64,000 nucleotides of DNA from Leptodontidium sp. MPI-SDFR-AT-0119. Taxonomy: Eukaryota; Ascomycota; Leotiomycetes; Helotiales; Leptodontidiaceae. The stretch lies in NCBI GenBank assembly GCA_020726505.1, contig JAHLEZ010000002.1, positions 620,001 to 684,000 on the forward strand, read 5' to 3'. The notes beneath the pieces were generated by a model, which saw only the letters and a program-made list of their open reading frames with translations, did no database searches and was not told the origin of the DNA. Position numbers and translations under genes: made by a program. Below are positions 136-12,856 of the stretch, in pieces. How positions within the stretch are numbered: position 1 is the stretch's first letter; every line of letters begins with the position of its first letter.

Positions 136-3100
136 TGACGCTTATCAGTAAACAAGGAACCGCTGAACAGTCAACATGATACATTGCACAAGACTAGAAC
201 CAATACTTTACAATACTTCAAGCATCAAGCTCTCGGGCGTGTTGATGAAGGCGATCAGGGTGCCACAGTCATTGACGAGAGGGAGCTTGGATCCAGCGGT
301 CATTCCTAAGATGTACCATCACGATTGCTACCAACTCCGCTCAATTCTCAATTCGATCATTCCAATTCCAAAAGTAGCGAATTGTCAGATCTTTCTGACA
401 TGTCTGGAATGGAATATGCAGGCCGTTCTCGAGCAGAAGGAACACAGCCACGCAAGCCTTCGCTGGGCCTGCCAATGCTCCCTTCTCGTGGGAATCGAGG
501 CACTAGTTATATTTCTGACCTCTCCGATATATCCAGTCTTTCAGATTTTGGAGAAGACGATGAGGCTGCCATCTTAATGGATGCTAGAAAGGCAGAAGCC
601 GTCCGGATCAATGACCACCAGGTAGATGCCAAGCGAGCTTGGATTTCTTCCTCCTCCGAAGCCAAGCCGGGCCTACATTATCCGCAGAGCATCAAACCAA
701 ATTCTAAGCAAGAAGGGTTTACTCCTCCATTACCGCCATCTACAGAGAAGGTTGCCGTTCAAGATTTGCAGGAGAAATGTAATCAGAGCAATGTTCGAAA
801 GCCGAGCTGCGAGCCACTGGCGTCTTGCTTGCCCCTGGAAGGCAAAAGCTTCATTGAGTTCGAGTTATCGGATTTCTCAATATATCTTCCCAACAATAAG
901 TACCACCCCTTTGCAATGAGAGGATTGCAACATTTGGGAGTGAAATCAGGTAGCACCAAATACTTGTTCGATGGTGTACTAAGTGTTGGGGACAGATGCC
1001 ATTATGTTCGAGACGTACCATTCAAATTACGATCAATTGGCAATTATGGAGAGGATCTCCACAAAGTAGGATCTCAGATTTGGATTGAGTCTGAATTAAA
1101 CTTTGGGGCAAATATATTCTATCGATTGGAAAGCCTTCAGCTGAATATGCACGGTACCATGCCGAATTTCTCTGGCTGGCGGATTTCGCGAAACATTTTG
1201 TCGATTATTGTGAGGCTTCCGGACACCCCATAACTTTGCACAGATTTCGGAGAGATTTCTACCAGTGGCTGAAGAAAACACACCAAACATCATCGACATT
1301 TAGAACTTGGTTCAAGAAGTACAATAGTCAGGATTTTCGTTCTGCCGTCTCGGCCAATATCGGTTTCCTCTTCTTGGAGAGTATGGGAATCGATCAGGAT
1401 CTCAACTCACTCCCCGTTTGGAGCGAGGTCATGTTGCGAGATATCGTGCCCATCCAGAGGATCGAAGAAGAGAAAACAATCGTCACTCAGTATGTTTACG
1501 ATTGCTTCAAGGACATCAGATTTGGTCACCACTTGAAGGTTATCCCGTCATCGTTCGATCAAGCATATCAAGGATATCCGGCAATGAAGCCGGCTGCTTC
1601 CATCGGCATAGACTCGCAACAAACGACTCTAGAAAATGTTCAGCCCGGAGGAATACCAACGGAAAGTCGATTCAAGGAAGGAGCAGCTGCTACGACTAGT
1701 CCTGTCAATTCATCAGTCGGTCGAAGTACTTTGATAAAAGATATCAAGGTAGGCGATGTGCTTTCAGTCACAAAAGATGGTTGTCAATCGGTCTGGAAAG
1801 ACGAGATCAGTAAATGGAAAGTCGCGGACGATTGCTGGTACGTCTATGTCCAAAAAGTCCACCGAATTGACGACGGCGAATCAACCTATGATGCGATATG
1901 GCTCTACAAGCCATCTGATACTTCATGCGCGAAAATGAAATACCCATACCCCAATGAGCTTTTCCTCTCTGACAACTGCACTTGTTCGAAACCTAGAATC
2001 GCAGCCAATGAAGTATTGGGCGTTGTGGATGTAAGATGGCACGGACAGCCATCAGAAATAGATTCAAGTCACTTCATCCGTCAGACGTATCTTCAGAACG
2101 AAACATTTGTTACATTTGAGGAATGCCATAAGATCTGCGAGCACCTCCGGGCTCAGCAAGAAACCGTCCTCAGCGGGCCACCATCTAAGCACCCCATCGG
2201 AACTACTGTTCTTGTTCCACCACGCTACAAGTCTAAGCATGGATTGGAGCCATACGAGATTGTGAATTATATAACCAAGGGTCTGAAGCAGTCCGCTGTA
2301 TTGAGACGTCTTCTCAGGAGACTCGATATCGATAATACTGGTGAAAAGAATGAGCTAATCTACTCTGACCAGATGGAAATGGTGGCGGTGCACAAAATAC
2401 AACGAACTTGTCTCGTTCGGTTTTACAACACGTTCGACGTTGCGCAAAAGATAATACCTACGCCATACAACCGGAACGGGAACGGGAATGCTTTCTATAT
2501 CACCACTCGTCTTGTTGAGACCAGCGGGAAGCAGTCCTTGAATCCGATAGGTGCAGACATCCCAAAATCCTTGATCCAAGGATTCGATCCCTTAGAGCCT
2601 CCAGCTCGAAGAGTACTCAATGGACTAGACCTGTTCTGCGGAGGTGGCAACTTTGGACGAGGTCTCGAAGAAGGCGGTGCTGTACGCAATAGATGGGCCA
2701 TTGATATCGACAAAAATGCAATCCACACTTACAATGCCAACGTTGACGAATCCGATCCCACCAAATTATTTTACGGATCGGTGAATGACATGCTAGCCCA
2801 AGCAATGAAAGGCAACCCCAAGAGTTCAGACCTTATCCCTCTTCCTGGAGATGTGGATTTCATTTCAGCTGGCAGTCCATGTCAAGGATTTAGCTCTTTG
2901 AACCCAGACCCTAACAACGAAAAAGGACTGAGGAATCAGTCCCTGGTTGCCTCTGTTGCTGCTTATGTCGACTTTTACCGTCCGAAATATGGCATCTTGG
3001 AGAATGTCCTCAGCATGGCTCAGAGAGGGCGCGGTCGTGACGAAGATGTTATGTCTCAATTAATTTGTGCTATCGTGGGACTTGGATACCAAGTACGACT

Positions 3101-3819
3101 ATGCGTGCTCGACGCCTGGAGCTGTGGCAGTCCACAGTCTCGTGGTCGTCTGTTCTTGACGTTCGCCGCGCCAGGCCTGACACCCGCAGAACATCCAGAC
3201 TTATCGCATTCTCATCCTCCTAATGCCATGTCTCGCGGCCTTGGTAAGCTTGCAAATGGACAGGCTTTCGGCGCTAGGAGAATGGGCCCAACGCCTTTCG
3301 AATGGGTTAATATAGAGGAAACCATAGCAGATCTTCCTGCTATCGGCGATGGTGCTACCTATCAATGTATTCCATACCCTGACCATGTCATGGCAGGGTC
3401 ACTCACTGAACAGTTGAGAGCAAGAATCGAATCGATCCCTACTCATCCTCGCGGGATGAATCTTTATAAGGCTTGGAATGATGGTCGAGGCCCGATGACA
3501 CCCGAGGAGAGAGCTCGCTTCGGTCCTGTGTATAAGAAGGACGGAACTATGAGAGGTGAGTTGTAGAAGCCCCCTTTAGCTTCCACAGTACTATCCAAGC
3601 CCTGCCTTGCTGCATATTCCTCAAAATTCTATTTGAATTATACTGATATCCGCCAACTCAACAGCAATGCACAAGCCGTTCTCGATGGCCTACGCCAGAG
3701 CTCAACCGAGATCAGTTTTTCCATGCATGACATTGGCAATGTCCCCTGGTGATCTTTACATGGGCGCGGGAATCCACTGGGACGATAACAGCCATACTCA
3801 CATGGAAATGTTCTCATGA
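136..3819 (+). pseudogene. DIM-2: DIM-2-like cytosine-5 DNA methyltransferase, 5' part of a split gene
   Basis: This is the N-terminal and catalytic part of a fungal DNMT1-class methyltransferase. The first frame (about 136-1130) reads the DIM-2 N-terminal region, including FDGVLSVGDRCHYV and QIWIESELN. A BAH domain follows (about 1735-2050, KVGDVLSV through YPNELFLSDNC). The catalytic motifs are LDLFCGGGNFGRGLEEGG (SAM site), GSPCQGFSSLN with the catalytic Cys, and ENVLSMAQ. DIM-2 is favoured over RID because of the long N-terminus and an intact ENV motif. An intron at 3556-3664 (GTGAGT...ACAG) joins the exon that ends near 3819, shortly after HWDDN. Breaks: an in-frame TAA at 307, and a missing base near 1128-1131, where YRLE must shift frame to reach KPSAEYARYHAEF. 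Motifs IX-X resume only after 11.33 kb. The true N-terminus is not settled. In such fungi the enzyme methylates repeats and can act with RIP, which is family knowledge and not shown here. Confidence 0.85.
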
Positions 3820-3842
3820 CACTTTCCATTTCCGTCTCTGGA

Positions 3843-3942
3843 CCTGAGCTGCTGCTTCTTTAGCCTAAGCTATGGGTGAGCAAGCTTAAGCCGAGGGTGA
3901 GCATTCCTGAGCACCGCCTAAGCACACGCTAAGTAAGCCTGA
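3843..3942 (+). repeat. Left cluster of CCTGAGC/GCCTAAGC motifs
   Basis: Short variants of CCTGAGC, GCCTAAGC, GCTTAAGC and GGTGAGCA are packed in about 100 bases. The 12-mer GCCTAAGCACAC at 3916-3927 occurs again in the same orientation at 11235-11246, near the other edge of the insert. Confidence 0.6.
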
Positions 3943-5549
3943 GTATGCATTAAAGAGCCGTTTAGTATCCGCAGGGGCTCGTTCTGGCTCCCTTGATGCT
4001 CGGTTACACTTTCCTCATCTTGTCTCTAGGCACGGATCTTATTTTGGCTCCCTTACGACCGAGATTCCCCCGGAGCCATTTCTAGATCTATATTCGCTTA
4101 TATACACTTGATAAGTAAGTTAGTCTTATCATTCTATAATATCTTATTAATATCTATAATATCTTATTAATATCTATAATATCTTATTAATATCTATAGG
4201 GGTGATTTTATATAATAAGAATTTTAGTAGCATTCAATTTGATCGTCTTGCTTTTTGGATATTTTAATAGTATAGTTTCCTCGCGTGTCTCTTTTCTCTT
4301 TCTCTTTCTCCTAGGTTTTGTTCTGACCGGGCTGGAGTACATGACTTACAGACTCTGGGGTTTAAAAATCTCGTTTCAAGAACTTTGTTCTCAAAATCCA
4401 AGAAGCTATTATAGACTTTCACAAGTTACCAGAGCAAATCATAGTCCTTCGCACAAGCAATGGCGATAGTCGTGAAGAATCCTCATCAAGATACCTATGG
4501 AGCTTTCCCTCTTACGAAGGAGAAAGTCATCTCATCTCAAAGCACGGAGAGTTATCGCGCGAATAAGACCTATTCCAACTATCTAGGAGCTTGTTCTCAA
4601 GTCTCAGAAAACAATTAGAACGAGAACAAGCATGGAATTGGCGACAACAGCAGTCGCAAAGAATTTGCACTAAAAAGGTATGTAAGGTATTTGACTACTT
4701 GACACAGCTGTTGAACTGTTGGCAGAGCTGCTTATCATAGAAGGTACAGTACTCTCTCTCTCTCGTCTGCCGATTTCAAGCGTCATTATGTCGTCCTGTG
4801 TCGCGAAGTTCCCGTATGGGCTGGAAGGTCACCTTCGAATATTTAGAATTTGGAGAGCTGGAGTAATATTTTACTTACTCAACATCTCCAAGATCAGATG
4901 ATAGCCACTCCAACTCGTTGGATCCTGAAATCAGCATCGTATGCTGCCCAAAGCTGAGGAAATAAGCATCTCCCCGGTTGGTGTATTGACAATAACACTT
5001 AACGTTGTCTTCGAACGGCCAATCATTCCTTGAGTATGTGAATGCAATTTCAAACCCCGAATACTAAAGAACTAATAGGTCTTTCTACTTTAGGCTATGA
5101 AGACCACGTTAGCACGAACTAAACTAGTCCTGAGTTTGTCGTCTAAATTCATCTCAATGCTCTGGATTCGCTCTGAAGAACGGCCAATGGATAATTTAAA
5201 GTACACAAGAAGGTCAAGTCTTTCGAAAATCAAGACTACCTATCGGCCTAAGCCCAGACCGGCGTTGTCTGGTGGTATGCATTCGGCTCGGAAATGCTTG
5301 TCACCGTTTGCGAACATCCGCCTCCCACCTCACTTCGATCGAGTTGAGAGCCAAAGCGATATTTGAGCCTCAAGCTTGCCAGCTTTCCACGAAACCTTGG
5401 TTGTGAATATTGGAGCAATTTACGGTACCGAAAAGTTCGTGTCGGTATGAACCATCTTATCAACGGGCACGAATATCACTTATAGTGGTACGTATGCGGT
5501 GTTGATCTTGTTGATAGTTGATTGTTGCTATAGCTTCTAAAGTTGAGGC
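3943..5549. other. No gene seen; decayed insert DNA
   Basis: The only open frames are short and look random. The segment holds the 20-bp tandem repeat at 4141-4198. No homology could be recognised. Confidence 0.6.
4141..4198 (+). repeat. 20-bp AT-rich tandem repeat, about 3 copies
   Basis: The unit atcttattaatatctataat is repeated at 4141-4160, 4161-4180 and (incomplete by two bases) 4181-4198, with no mismatch seen. It lies in the non-genic left arm of the insert in DIM-2. Confidence 0.9.
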
Positions 5550-5683
5550 TATCCCTTCGTCCGCTGAGACATTGCCAGGCGCTAGCAGGGGGAAGCGAGC
5601 GCGGCATGCAGGAGGGGCAATGCATTATTTTATGTACCTTTGCATACAAATTCCTTAGTAAGGTACTTTATGCTGATGAAATC
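5550..5683 (+). repeat. Left terminal inverted repeat, 134 bp
   Basis: Every base of this block matches the reverse complement of 7507-7640. Identity stops at 5684/7506. The outer half is GC-rich, with GCGCTAGC and GCGAGCGCGGCATGC, and the inner half is AT-rich. Confidence 0.95.
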
Positions 5684-5759
5684 TACTCCAACATTCCCCC
5701 TCTTTACAAAGAGATACTATACAAAAAATGCAGCCTCCTTGCGACCTCTTTGGAGGTTT

Positions 5760-7442
5760 TTATGTTGAATTTCCTAGCACCTTTTGACGTTTCCCTTTAT
5801 ATAAGCACTCTATACAAATACTACGTTTAGGTAGTTTCTTCCAAAAGTGTATATGCTGTAAGTCGGCATTAAAAAGCCGCTTCCCCCCTAATTCAGCATA
5901 TAATTGAGCCAACTGCACCTTCTTAGAATATGCTAAGAGCGTACAATACAACTTAATTCTGAATTGTAAGTGGCTTAATGGGCGCTCAATATTAGTGTGC
6001 AGAATATATAACCTGTATGCGTTGATACAAGCTATATCAATCAACTAATAAAAGAGAGGCCACCAATTCCGTTGTGTACTCCGGTGAGTCTCATAGGCCT
6101 CTCTGTATTGGTTTGCTAGGTCGACTCCTCCCATATGGTGATTATAATCATCAATAAAGCGCGGAATCCGCAGCTCTTTTGTATGGTCCTCCCCAAAGAT
6201 TAGTCTGGCAATACGACTATTTGTTGATGTCTTTGCAGGGCGCCTCCGAAGTTTGGCTATGAAGTCGTCTGCTTGGTGAACCGTACGTATGTTGCTGAGA
6301 GTTAGAATAATATTATTGTCCTGCTAGGCTAAACAAAGGGTATCCTCCACTACTTTGGTAATCAAGCTGTTCTATGGTAAAGCGTTTGCATACTGCTTTT
6401 TGAGGATTGTAAACTCCTTTGGGAGTTCAGAATGCGGCCGCGTTGTACTAACAGCACTATAACCACACTTCCGAAGCTCTTTAAAAAGAGGTATAGAGGT
6501 AAAGTAGTTATTAAGGTAAACAGCGAGTCCTTGGCGTGGTAGAGAGAGTACAAGAAACCGTACTAAAGAGCCGGTAGGCGTAAGTTGTGGATGCTTCGGA
6601 AGAGACTGTAGTTTATGGGATTTGGAGCTCCAAATCCAATTATATATATATCCATGATCTGCGACTCCGTATATCTTGTACCCTTGCTTAATCGGTTTGC
6701 TCGGCATTTTGTAGGTATGAGAAGATCTAATATAAATTATTAATAGCGGAGTAGACAGGTCAGAAATAGTTCTTACCGGCTAAAACAGCGAACCATAAGC
6801 TCATTAATACTGACTTCGGATGATGGAGAGTAATATCGTTGACAAGAAGCTTGGATTTCCGAGGCTAAAGGCTCTACTTTATACTACCAAATCGTATTTG
6901 TTGGCAAGTGACGACTAAGGTGTTGATTATCCTCAGAACTAGAGATATGACAATACCTCTTAATATCTTCATAACGATTAAGTGTGATATAGGCGTAAAT
7001 TGTATGTATTAGACCCTTCGTTATGTCCTGATTCCAGTATATATCAATGCGAGGCTCCTCATGGACTCCTATATAAACTAACGCTCTAATAAAGACAAAA
7101 AGCTCCTCCACCATCAAATCCCGCTATTCCCTTGCTCTTTCTTGTTTGACTCGCAGACGTTGTAGGTTCGCATACTGATTTGTATTAGAGGTAATAATCT
7201 GTAAAAGGGCAGGTGTAAAGAATAAAGTAAAGTAATCATATGGTTCTGCAGTAGGAGGGAAATCAGGAGGAAGTGTTGCTTTGGCAAGGCCGTGGAGGCT
7301 CGCATTTGAAAGGCTCAAATGCGACGTCTTTGATTGGTCCAAATTCGTTGAGAATAGCTTCAAGAGCTTCCAATTTCGTCTTCTTTAAAGGAGGGGGAGC
7401 CTCAGAATCACTAGAATTGGCGTTGTCGAGTGGGTGCTTCAT
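5760..7442 (-). pseudogene. piggyBac-like transposase relic
   Basis: Fragments in order on the minus strand: an N-terminus from MKHPLDNANSS (7442); VYIGVHEEPRIDIYWNQD with the piggyBac N-domain pattern; MPSKPIKQGYKIYGVADHG (first acidic residue, as in CDSG of the family); VYLNNYFTSIPLF; IDDYNHHMGGVDLANQ; WPLFY; DIACINAYRLY; and a Cys-containing tail (CIECLYKGKRQ). Amber codons stand where tryptophan is expected at 7126-7124, 6886-6884, 6326-6324 and 6047-6045. The family's DNxFTS aspartate is Asn here (codon 6512-6510). There is also a frameshift near 7300, and a likely real intron begins at the gtaagaac after CFSR. Each amber equals CCA-to-CTA on the plus strand, the CpA-to-TpA signature of RIP. 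It cannot encode an active enzyme. Confidence 0.9.
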
Positions 7443-7506
7443 GTTGGTGGGCCAGCGCGTATTCAGTCGCGTCTTAAAGTGGGTAAAAAAAATGAGGGTA
7501 AAGCGC

Positions 7507-7640
7507 GATTTCATCAGCATAAAGTACCTTACTAAGGAATTTGTATGCAAAGGTACATAAAATAATGCATTGCCCCTCCTGCATGCCGCGCTCGCTTCCC
7601 CCTGCTAGCGCCTGGCAATGTCTCAGCGGACGAAGGGATA
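7507..7640 (-). repeat. Right terminal inverted repeat, 134 bp
   Basis: This is the exact reverse complement of 5550-5683. It keeps several CpA/TpG sites unmutated, in contrast to the transposase interior. Confidence 0.95.
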
Positions 7641-7936
7641 AGTGTTGTTGTTCCCAATGCGGCCTAGTGCCTGATCGGGTGACTTAAGGTCACCTGGTCG
7701 TAATTATTCCAACAGTTCGTTTGAGGAGATGACAGCCCTACCAACTAAATTTCACTAGTGCCTTGCTTCTAGAAAAGCTTCGTCACTCCTCATAAATGAT
7801 TTGTTCTATATTTCATACATCGTCACACGTGTCCAACCTCTCGAACAGAAAAATCACTTCCAACTGTGCACTCACATCGCATCCACCCCCGCAGCTCTCC
7901 TCACACAGCTTACTTCTATCATTCCCAATACTAAAA

Positions 7937-8128
7937 ATGCGCGCGTCCTTCACGCGCTGGGGGCGATCACTCTTCCGTCGCCCCGACGGCTATCCATTCA
8001 GACCAATCACGATTATATTGATCTATCCAACGATACATTTGGGAAACTGGGCTTTAGAGAAATATTTCACTCTGAGGAACAAGCGAAGTGAAGCCGCAGT
8101 TTTGGGTGAAAACGAGAATGCGAAGTAG
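7937..8128 (+). CDS. Possible 64-aa hypothetical protein inside the insert
   Basis: The ORF starts at an ATG in a favourable AAAAATG context after a pyrimidine-rich leader. The protein begins MRASFTRWGRSLFRR and has one moderately hydrophobic stretch (RPITIILIYPTIHLGNW) followed by a charged tail. An Arg-rich start with a single membrane-like segment would suit a small mitochondrial membrane protein, but no family is recognised. Its length is close to what chance can give, so it may be noncoding. Confidence 0.25.
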   Translation: MRASFTRWGRSLFRRPDGYPFRPITIILIYPTIHLGNWALEKYFTLRNKRSEAAVLGENENAK

Positions 8129-8860
8129 AGTCGAGCGAACGACAATCGTTGAACCCGGGGGTGCTGAGTTTGGAAAATTCACCAACGCACATTGGTACCT
8201 GCCTACATTGATGACGGTTTCAGTCGGGACATATCATTGTTGCTGGGTGAGGGAGGAATAGTTGGAGTGGACGACCGCAGCGAGCTCTGCACCTTTGTGG
8301 CTCGAGCAGCGCTTTGAGAAGGAAACGTCGTAGAAAAATTTCGAATACTTCCACACGAAGTGCGATGAAGGAGAAAGTACGGTGGGGTGGCGAAAGAGCA
8401 GCAGCTACTTCCTCGAATCCAGCAATCAAGTGCAAGTACAGTCCTCACAGGCAACCATCACGTATGGACTTTTATTCTTGAATCAAGTCGTGTACAACTT
8501 CTCTAGGACCTATACGTCATCCTTGCATCCCTCGTAGATGGTAAGTGTATGCTATGTGTCGTGGGATTTTTTGAATTTGATTACATTGCTTTAACCAGTA
8601 TTTCAAACTGCTTCCAGGATGTGCTGGGAGTCGGGATGCACTGCGCCAGTTCCGCTTGCCCAATGTCTGTAGAGCAGGATAGCAGGAGATCCTGGCGTAT
8701 CTTCAACGATGGCAGGAGCGATGAGCCATGTAAACAACATATTAGCTTGGTTTCCCTCTTGACTCTTCTTCTCTCTTCCTCGATCTCGCCCTTCAGAATC
8801 TTTTGGATAACAGCAAGCGTAAATATACTTATCATCATCCGAAAATTCTCCCGAGAGACA

Positions 8861-9097
8861 ATGAGTTTCATCCTTCACTTCCTTCGCCCTCGCGCCGCAT
8901 TTCGCGCTCTTACACCTGAAGCTAGGAACAGCTTTGTTGCGACCACCATCGGACTTGGTATGGCATCGTTCGAATTCGGCCACACCATGGGAAGGCAGTA
9001 CCAGCTCCCTTCGCCGAAGCCAAATCCAAGTCCCAAGCAGCAAAGCGATCCAGTTCAGGAGACTGAGCAATCGGTTCGTCGAGTGGGAAAGAAGTGA
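8861..9097 (+). CDS. Possible 78-aa hypothetical protein inside the insert
   Basis: The ORF begins MSFILHFLRPRAAFRAL, which is amphipathic and basic. A glycine-rich hydrophobic stretch follows (FVATTIGLGMASFEFG), then a Pro/Gln/Glu-rich end. The shape resembles the preceding small ORF (basic start, one hydrophobic segment, charged tail), but the two are not clearly homologous. The frame stays open upstream to 8549, so an upstream exon is possible. No family is recognised. Confidence 0.25.
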   Translation: MSFILHFLRPRAAFRALTPEARNSFVATTIGLGMASFEFGHTMGRQYQLPSPKPNPSPKQQSDPVQETEQSVRRVGKK

Positions 9098-11232
9098 AGG
9101 ATGAACAAGAGCATCCGGGCATGGCAGTAAGTACCCTCGAGGTCACCTTCGTGCTGATCATCGCTAAATTTTGTTGACAGGCGGCCCGACGGCGCTGACC
9201 TGTAAGACCCATCAACCGACAAGCCATTGTCGTCGAGTACACCGTACTCCGACACCGCGGTGGCGGTTACATTATCATGCGGTTTCTTGTTCTCGTCGGT
9301 CCATTTGCTTCTCTAAGCACGATGTTTCACAAGTCCGGTCGATGAAAATCACAACGAGGCGACAGACCCTCTCAACGGCGGCTCACATGGTCATGCTGGA
9401 TCATAGAGAGCTTCTTCGTCGGTCATATTCCTCTCACACTTCGAGTTCGGTCAACCAGAATCATAATGATGCAACGAAAAGTCCAAAGCTGGTTTGAATT
9501 CCCAGGCCGACTCTCGGATGTTTTTCTCGTCGGTCAACTTGCTCTCTGCGGTAGTACACACACAAAAGTTCAGTCCAAGAAGACTCGCGATGAACTCAGA
9601 CTCCCGCAGCCACACATCAACCGTTAGCAGTTCTTATCATCATACTAGCTGCAGTCCGCCCTGCTCGTGACCGCATTGTACTGTCGGACTTTCACACTGC
9701 AAACCGCCCGCAAGCCTGATTATTTGATGGTGATCGAGAACATCCACTATGAATCCAGGGCCATTCTTTTCTTTGGAAACAACTCGGGATGCCCTATTAC
9801 CGTTGGCACATAATTCGGTATGTCAACGCCAGCCGGAAGAGATACGCATACACAAAGGAGGGTCAGCTGTGGACTGGCTGGCCGACCCTCTTCTCAAACA
9901 CTTTCGCATATGCTTGACGTCCCGAAGCAACTGGAGTGGTGATTCCTGCCATGGTGGTTTGAAACCGCCGGTGCGATTACAACAGTAGCTGAACAGCAGC
10001 CTCCACTTGACCGAAGTAATCAACCCACGCAACTCGGTTTGTACAAATACGATACAAAACGATTACCTACTGTTTTCAGAACGCTGTCAAGCTCGAGACC
10101 ACACTGTCCAAAGACTTGTAAAGAATCTCCTCATCATGTCGACTGATTATCGACACCACTGCGTTGAAGGCATGCAGGAGGGATATCAAAAACACCCAGG
10201 ACAGAACCCACAAGCGAGCTCCATCGTCTGGCAGCCAAGTCATCCACTGCGCATCTTTCACCGGAGTGCGCCGTGCCAGGCAAACTGGGAGAAGGTCTAG
10301 GGGGTCATTGAATTGAGGAAAGGTTGCAGGAAGTTGTGTCATCTGTGGACTTAGTGGCCGGAGACTGGAGGACTTTGAGGCTTGCCTGAATGAAAATCTG
10401 GACCCCGGACTGGAAGTTGGCGGAGAAAGTAGACGAAAGGCTCTTCTTTAGAAGGTTGATGGGCATATAGGAGAGAATGGTGTTTGACAGTGGCTGTAAT
10501 GTGACAGACGAAAGTGTTTGGGGAGTGGAAGTTATGCAAAAAGCTGGATTTTAGACTGCTCGACGAGGCGGGGATGTTAGAACATGCCTATGGCGGTTAG
10601 AATGTGGAGGAAGCAATAAAGCGATGGAGTGAGGAATTTTGCCATGTTGTATTACATACGTCAGACATATACACTAGGAGACAATACAATCTACTGAAAG
10701 TATATGTTTCCGTTATGTCTAATTCTTGCGCAAATAAAGCTCGAGGGAGGGTTTTGGAGTTTCAATAAGATCAGCTGGTGACCCTGCCTTTGCCAAAGGC
10801 TGACTACCAGGTACGTTATTGTAACGCCTTCGGTAGATAATCGAGGAGCCGGTCCAATTCTACAAAAGAACAGCTCTATTGGACTGCAGGTGAAAGAACT
10901 TGGTAGAAAGATTCCCGAAGGGCAGTCCCGGAACACGATCGTACCGGGGTTGCCTATTATGTGCTTGACTATTTTGAAAGACAATTAAACTTACATGAGG
11001 CCTCGGACTGGCACATTTGATTTCTTGAGCGACTGATTGACAGGCTTGTCCGGTTCGCAAGACCGTGCTCTTGAGAGGGACATTGATGAGTGGACTGAAC
11101 AGCAACAGCTGCGTCGGCAAATGGCCCGAGGGGAAGGAGGAGGTGAGAGGAGGACCGTACCCACGCTAGGATTCCGAGGAAATAAGAGATATGATTTGTT
11201 GAATCAGCACGTGTGTGGATCAGGAGGTAAAC
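9098..11232. other. No convincing gene; right arm of the insert
   Basis: There are only scattered short frames. The ORF at 11037-11240, with DIDEWTEQQQLRRQMARGEG, has protein-like composition and follows an intron-acceptor-like gattgacag, so it may be the last exon of a decayed gene. No terminal repeat or transposase motif was found. Confidence 0.45.
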
Positions 11233-11297
11233 AGGCCTAAGCACACTTGAGCACACCTGAGCCGAAGCTGAGCTGGGCCTGAGCTGAGCCTGAGCAA
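11233..11297 (+). repeat. Right cluster of CCTGAGC/GCCTAAGC motifs
   Basis: GCCTAAGCACAC (11235-11246) is followed by tightly packed CCTGAGC, GCTGAGC and TTGAGCAC variants, in the same orientation as the cluster at 3843-3942. It ends about 40 bases before the DIM-2 frame resumes. Confidence 0.6.
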
Positions 11298-11334
11298 GGC
11301 GGCGCTGCTCACGTGAGACATATGGATGGGAATT

Positions 11335-12856
11335 GGAAACATTTCCGTGGTATAACCGAATGTTTACAGCCATGGAAGGCTGCCGAATCCAAGGCGTGCC
11401 GGACCACGAGGTCTTCTTAGGCACTCCAAGTGAGATATGGAGGATATTAGGAAACAGCGTCAATCGCAATGTGTCTTTGGCGTTGGGTCTGTCACTGCGT
11501 GACGCATGGCTCGCAAATGATCCTGGGATTCACCGTACACCCATCAGTGCTAAAGCTACCACTGCATTGCAGGCACCCGCCAAGAGCGGGAATATCAGTA
11601 TGGTGAGCAAACCTAGGACGATATCTAAGTCGCGCACGGTTAGAAGATTAACAGGATATGGAGAATTTGCTAGATCCCCTGCTCTAGCACCACCCCCCTC
11701 TGGAGATTCCTCTGATGATGAAAGTGGTCTAATAGAATGGACGTATAACTACATGATGTCGCTTGATCCAATGTCCTATGCGCAGTCTGATCAAATTCAA
11801 GATACCACAAGAAATAGTACGGATATTACAAGGAATTCCGAGAAAGACAAAGTGTCTCTGAAACGCCCACATGTTGCTTTCCAAGAAACGTCAATGTCAC
11901 AGAAGGAGAAGAGTAGCAAGTTGGCACGAGCTTCTTCTAGTTCATTGCCAACATGCCAAACCACCAGAAATGCAATCAGAGACGAGTTCTCGCCGCAGGG
12001 ATCCGGAAATGTACCAACTTTAGCTATCAAGCTAAAGAAAGTCGCGAGGGACAGTCTTCGGCAAATTAACCTAGGATACATTCCCGACGAAGACGAAAGT
12101 GATAAAGGTAGAGCTGACTCAGGCGAAGACAGTGAGCTAGAAATTATATCTGCTTCTGTGACACCAAAATCAACTTCCCGCCGTCCTCGAAAACGATTTG
12201 GTGGTCGATGGGGAAAAATTTCGAGTTCAATACGCCAGATTCCAGTTGTCATCAACCTTCTATCCGATGACGAGGATGAAGATGTCGTTTCTCAACATAA
12301 ACGCCCAGTTCCAGGGATTTGCAATAAAACGTCCCGTAGAAGCAAGGCATGTGCGCCGATGAGTGCATCCCTCGAGAACCATCAGGGAGAAGGCGTTGGT
12401 ACAAGTATTCAGCGCCATCACTTGCCAATTTCTAGGCCATCGTACCCTCAAGATCCCCATGACACACAGCACACATCACATCCACATATAACAGAGCGCC
12501 CCCAACGCCCATATTCCTACCTAAACAACACCTCCTGTCTGTCTGGACATTGTAACAGACCCCAGCCGACAAATATTTCAGCCCTACCAAACCACGCAGC
12601 AGAACACGAAGAACAACAAAACGCCCTAGGAGCAACCCGACCGAAAGAAGACCTTCGGAAAGAAGTCGAAATGCGAGAGAGGGTAAATAGGGAAGCTGAG
12701 AAGCAAGATGCGGAAGGGAGGGAAGGGGAGACGAGACAGAGACAGAGAGATATTCCGGTGCCGCTGCAGAAATATATGCCTGTTGATAATGGGGATTTCA
12801 TGGCGTACTTCCAGACTAATCAGTATATGGGTGCGAGGAGCGGGAGATTGAGATAG
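11335..12856 (+). pseudogene. DIM-2: DIM-2-like DNA methyltransferase, 3' part with acidic tail
   Basis: The frame reads PWYNRMFTAMEGCRIQG, VPDHEVFLGTPSEIW and ILGNSVNRNVSLALGLSLRDAW. These are the target-recognition end and motifs IX-X of a C5 methyltransferase and continue the protein interrupted at about 3.8 kb. About 430 further residues are low-complexity and charged, including SGDSSDDESG and a SUMO-interaction-like core VVINLLSDDEDED near 12243-12281, and end in a Glu/Arg-rich helix-like stretch. The frame is open for 507 codons with no stop, so this half has decayed little. Separated from its promoter and start, it is probably not translated as a methyltransferase. An ATG at 11333 and others downstream exist, so a tail-only product cannot be excluded. 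Confidence 0.82.

Follow-up and report, generated by a model that had tools for sequence, protein, structure and literature searches.

The stretch of DNA analysed here (the window, 64,000 nucleotides) comes from Leptodontidium sp. MPI-SDFR-AT-0119 (Helotiales) and carries a gene for a DIM-2-type cytosine-5 DNA methyltransferase (C5-MTase) into which a mobile element appears to have inserted. The locus and its insert sit inside a 5.64-Mb contig (C12) of an assembly of 77 Mb in 69 contigs; all the locus data are those of one strain, and no paper was found in the literature under the strain name. On the plus strand, the N-terminal coding part (310..1130) lies in the open reading frame (ORF) 310-1233, which is valid up to about a frameshift described below and inside which the NCBI model of the gene, P0001 (BKA61DRAFT_699632, 1,080 amino acids, 99% identical to the window frame), starts. 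The main exon (1126..3555, +) encodes the initial portion of the C5-MTase domain together with a BAH-like region. In its frame (1095-3566), the Pfam scan found PF00145 (E 2.2e-28, profile positions 2-167 of 324) and a BAH match at E 0.0026, which at 18.1 bits is below the Pfam cut-off of 30.8; the precomputed domain set of P0001 comprises PF25423, PF00145 and PF01426. Among solved structures, the best chains for this frame are 9baq (E 1.4e-173) and 9bap (E 2.6e-173), labelled only as DNA (cytosine-5-)-methyltransferase, which we take to be Neurospora DIM-2. A GT-AG intron of 109 bp (3556..3664, +), on which translation and P0001 concur, separates the main exon from a short one (3665..3789, +), which closes with ...GIHWDDN according to the three-frame translation and the junction letters. 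The C-terminal part (11357..12856, +), detached from this frame, is on the same strand and in the same order. It runs from RMFTAMEGCRIQG to ILGNSVNRNV and then to a stop, with 499 open codons, and aligns with 9bap from residue 1188 (E 1e-8). It holds the tail and the motifs that we assume to be IX and X in the C5-MTase numbering.

Protein relatives gave 996 matches, of which the best 120 are listed. Among these, Cadophora sp. DSE1049 supplies the closest of the named relatives (75%), and other Leotiomycetes come next. The informative names include several Dim-2 proteins, the first being P0024 (51%); many relatives nearer than P0024 have general names. In the alignment, the Cadophora orthologue P0002 runs HWDDQRMFTAMEGRRIQG uninterrupted. 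Because P0002 has nothing between HWDDN and the following residues, the insert is delimited as 3790-11356 (7,567 bp). The insertion point, HWDDN / RMFTAMEGCRIQG, is immediately ahead of catalytic motif IX, and with respect to the orthologue the gene is broken exactly, with zero residues lost. The C5-MTase motifs are not all in one frame, since the insert severs IX-X; positions 11294-11356 of the right open frame are element sequence, not DIM-2. Judged from its sequence, the locus is a DIM-2-type gene, but a broken one. The preliminary description of this DNA had proposed a DIM-2-type gene split by about 7.5 kb and had suggested aligning the orthologous locus. The split is borne out by the exact insert and by the continuity of P0002 across the junction. 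The two halves, their orientation and the order of their motifs also stand, whereas the right boundary has to be moved, since motifs IX-X begin at 11357 and not at 11.33 kb.

A transcript of the left half would stop after nine element codons, at the first in-frame stop inside the element (3817..3819, +), and would yield a protein that lacks motifs IX and X. The NCBI model ends at this same stop, inside the transposon. In C5-MTases, motifs IX and X are needed for the fold and for the cofactor pocket. Splicing across the insert presumably does not occur, the DIM-2 protein would be inactive and DIM-2 methylation would be lost. We consider it very probable that the only DIM-2 found in the strain was inactivated in this way, by a 7.57-kb mobile element that would have inserted between HWDD and motif IX. 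Repeat-induced point mutation (RIP) was rejected as the cause of inactivation, with a composite index of -0.87 in one DIM-2 half and -0.62 in the other.

No second DIM-2 was detected in the genome. The window sequence 300-3788 searched as DNA and the right half searched as protein each matched only themselves. The catalytic part searched as protein gave five matches, the four non-self ones being distant C5-MTases (29-46% over short stretches). A PF00145 profile search gave nine matches at five loci, the DIM-2 locus included. The genome search that the preliminary description had recommended is therefore negative by DNA, by protein and by profile. Its further suggestion, that repeat-bearing DNA had disrupted the gene of a repeat-silencing enzyme, agrees with a mobile element with recurrent ends in the sole DIM-2 found: a repeat-methylating kind of enzyme was apparently put out of action by a repeat.

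The mobile nature of the insert (3790..11356) is suggested by its ends. A DNA search with 3790-5545 returned 39 match rows, and 37 of the 38 non-self ones are confined to the first 536 bp (left end, 3790..4325, +). With 7645-11360, 14 match rows were obtained, and 12 of 13 non-self ones fall in the last 134 bp (right end, 11223..11356, +). Apart from a nested element, the remaining interior has two short matches (48 and 100 bp) and is nearly unique in the genome. Because both ends recur elsewhere, the insert is best read as behaving as one mobile element. A transposon had already been noticed within the segment; it corresponds to the nested element at 5550-7640, to which the recurrent ends of the whole insert are now added. 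The insert is bordered by ATAAC, at 3785-3789 and at 11352-11356, and the element would have been targeted to, or have duplicated, a short ATAAC/AAC sequence. At the compared loci, element edges were set by eye. Twelve loci were inspected for right ends, L037 being excluded as not an end and two match rows being without a locus. Ten of the 11 right ends read, window included, close in AAC and the remaining one in GAC. Since ATAAC closes right ends at other places too (four of the 11, window included), its presence at both junctions does not have to reflect target duplication. Left tips could be aligned in four of 12 loci, again with the window, and read AGCC, AGCC, AGCG and AGGC, preceded by AAC in three cases and by ATC in one. 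An inward-facing GGAAATG(TT) motif was seen by eye near both ends of the element. On C45 and C67 (L043, L044), both ends occur together in the order seen in the window, at spacings of about 8.7 and 4.6 kb and with differing interiors; that on C45 contains galactose-oxidase-like and carboxylesterase-like frames. Each of these pairs would represent one element rather than two insertions.

Upstream of the insertion, a -1 frameshift (1110..1135, +) is visible in three-frame translation and in the alignment. The orthologue-conserved stretch IWI.S..N...FYRL switches frame near 1.12 kb and resumes as GKPSAEY. Since this stretch is missing from P0001 alone and present in the other seven of eight alignment rows, the NCBI model, which skips it, likely bridged the frameshift by an intron. 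The frameshift may be a second lesion, due either to real decay or to sequence error.

The loss of DIM-2 is probably recent. Neutral decay was simulated in 4,000 runs over 4,077 coding bases (1101-3555, 3665-3789 and 11357-12853), a set that leaves out the N-terminal region upstream of the frameshift. The first stop appeared after a median of 18 substitutions, and in 95% of the runs within 71 substitutions (1.74%). These coding bases of both halves contain zero stops, so any period of neutral decay was probably short. The left part was compared over 707 ungapped columns with relatives, 13 in number, chosen from the best 120 of 996; the amino-acid rate is not raised on the Leptodontidium branch. 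Tajima-type tests with 11 outgroups, which are mutually non-independent, gave chi-square values not exceeding 1.6 in the comparison with P0002 and 0.7 in that with P0003, and unique changes at otherwise invariant columns number four here, four in P0002 and three in P0003. The inverted repeats of the nested element show no difference over 134 bp, which bounds the divergence of the nested copy at about 2.2%, barring conversion of the arms.

Several observations weigh against the reading of a recent, clean insertion by a defined element. The left tip seen in the window is not common to eight of the 12 left-end loci, and at least five of those differ from it. At the two further places with paired ends, the flank on the left and the end on the right read TATATC/TATAAC and GGTAAC/TATGAC and differ beyond the last base or two; as far as these sequences tell, ATAAC is not proven to be either a target duplication or a fixed core. 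No transposase was recognised for the outer element in a Pfam scan that covered, within the insert, only the frames 6372-6779 and 8507-9094 (the scanned frame 11294-12853 overlaps the last 63 bp of the insert). The unaccelerated rate of the left part is also compatible with a gene that continues to be used in part. Finally, a sequencing error could account for the frameshift, and the insertion would then be the sole lesion.

This last point would also suit an assembly artefact, or an insertion limited to one nucleus type or subculture, but such an explanation is very unlikely, because the insert has the boundaries of a repeat family and the join lies inside the 5.64-Mb contig. We give just as little credence to a truncated protein that retains a non-catalytic role, so that the locus would not be simply dead. 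The left frame is indeed open from 1101 and its rate is not raised, but recent loss also accounts for the open frame, and the frameshift near 1.12 kb, if real, would already break the N-terminal part. Removal of the insert as a giant intron, leaving a working DIM-2, is hardly credible: despite the openness of both halves, the unaccelerated left part and the absence of residue loss at the junctions, the edges (AGCC... / ...ATAAC) have neither GT on the left nor AG on the right (deeper splice sites were not searched for), the other intron seen in the gene measures 109 bp, the NCBI model leaves the halves unjoined, and the upstream frameshift, if real, would remain.

With inactivation by the insertion as the favoured reading, the fate of the remaining 5-methylcytosine (5mC) has to be considered separately. 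The PF00145 search points to a DNMT1-like locus with BAH on C2 (E 4.7e-21 to DNMT1 structures, the match crossing three stop codons, maybe introns) and to a DNMT5-like locus at C12:4.83 Mb with PF00145 and an SNF2 domain. Two further loci, on C6 and C1, share 47% identity over 158 residues and are presumably RID-like, a label that we base on characteristic motifs; the relatives of the C6 locus have general names only. The DNMT5-like and RID-like matches are spread across several frames. From their sequences, the DNMT1-like, the DNMT5-like and the two RID-like loci appear recognisable, their intactness being unproven. Since such loci are present, a complete disappearance of 5mC cannot be deduced and was rejected as an inference. 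Strains of Zymoseptoria tritici with non-functional dim2 retain low 5mC (PMC8016269). In Verticillium, most methylation is due to Dim2, not to Dnmt5 or Rid, under the conditions tested, and Dim2 loss leaves both development and expression unchanged (PMC8091789). Given these Verticillium findings, DIM-2 loss should lower 5mC here, with no assurance of a visible effect. As a separate observation, this genome contains two RID-like C5-MTase loci (L009, L012); two rid genes have also been described in Anisogramma anomala (PMC10998396).

Dim2 loss is recurrent in ascomycetes, and Leptodontidium adds a new case to it, one whose cause is clear. In one survey, Dim2 homologues occur in 51% of species and are absent from nine of 29 species of an expanded-genome Leotiomycete clade. 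Losses of Dim2, Rid1 and Dnmt5 are recurrent in Leotiomycetes, the class to which Leptodontidium belongs, and loss or pseudogenisation is mentioned across Ascomycota (PMC12543289). In the available part of that survey no cause is shown at any Dim2 locus, and its main text does not name Leptodontidium, whereas here the cause would be an insertion. Z. tritici also lost its native DIM-2 recently while keeping Dnmt5 and Rid genes, but through gene amplification and RIP (PMC8016269), in contrast to the insertion into a native gene proposed here, where no extra copy was found. In a wheat pathogen, too, a transposon acted on the gene of a DNA methyltransferase, apparently with amplification as the outcome rather than insertion (PMC6710886). 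Among the papers listed in literature searches for a dim-2 gene broken by transposon insertion, no such case was seen. The locus looks like a clean, young natural DIM-2 knockout in a genome that still has recognisable DNMT5-like, DNMT1-like and RID-like loci. Two strains differing in the presence of the insert would reveal the effect of DIM-2 itself on repeats, mutation rate and genome size, which has been asked about Zymoseptoria and about large-genome Leotiomycetes.

As to the identity of the outer element, fungal tyrosine-recombinase elements comprise Cryptons and Starships. The insert resembles them in its short direct repeat without long duplication and in its large, copy-variable interior, but differs in that no match to DUF3435 (tyrosine recombinase) was found in it. 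With 100 of 144 candidates scored, the genome has at least 115 DUF3435 matches. A Starship captain was rejected, the nearest of these matches to any listed end being about 26 kb away, on C1. An autonomous relative may carry a recombinase. A transposase beside other end copies was also rejected: the one recognised in a Pfam scan that covered a minority of the listed frames, a DDE_3 frame in L050, is flanked by 39-bp inverted repeats and likely belongs to a nested Tc1-type element. A longer end pair, C67:811667-822098, lacks a window-type left tip and contains frames that, from a reading of their sequence, look HET-, esterase-, reductase- and SDR-like; it was not taken to be an element. In the interior of the insert outside the nested element, the longest stop-to-stop frame measures 196 amino acids; introns could hide a gene. 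A small open frame (8861..9097, +; 78 amino acids) is a possible cargo gene. Its sole database match, 91% identical over 100%, is an unnamed protein from JGI contigs no longer than 3,402 bases. The longer frame 8507-9094 has no Pfam match, and a second genome copy of the region did not turn up when 7645-11360 was searched as DNA. We tentatively propose, as a possibility rather than an expectation, that the insert represents a hitherto undescribed family of large elements that carry cargo and are moved in trans, with AAC insertion, conserved ends bearing TGAGC/TAAGC subterminal repeats, and copy-variable interiors, one of which would have broken its host's only DIM-2.

Two side observations concern the same repeats and recombinases. 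A copy of the left-end repeat (L049:1456-2276) lies upstream of a HET-domain frame and is perhaps part of its promoter. The DUF3435 matches, counted exon-wise and hence corresponding to fewer genes, often contain stops, suggesting a history rich in Starship-type recombinases.

The nested element (5550..7640, -; 2,091 bp) is delimited by terminal inverted repeats of 134 bp (5550..5683 and 7507..7640), complementary at 134 of 134 positions (100%). It contains a transposase fragment, DDE_Tnp_1_7 (PF13843; 6372..6779, -; E 2.8e-14, profile positions 146-249 of 349), the only part of the transposase recognised. In piggyBac transposons, duplication of TTAA is usual. The nested element shares with them the DDE_Tnp_1_7 domain and perfect inverted repeats, but its flanks (GGC|TATCCC and GGGATA|AGT) show no TTAA duplication, and it is for this reason called piggyBac-type only. 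Its relatives in the genome are 64-84% identical over matches longer than 700 bp. Base changes were compared for six of them (L052-L057). Those in L057 are mostly of the C-to-T type at CpA and CpT (276 versus 25 in reverse), and L053 leans likewise at CpA (79 versus 22), both patterns being RIP-like; L052, L054, L055 and L056 show no clear C-to-T bias. Inverted tips of the nested element, of about 40 bp and with outer edges about 166 bp apart, also occur at C4:1888940-1889105 and C14:257597-257762, and these pairs are likely short non-autonomous derivatives of it.

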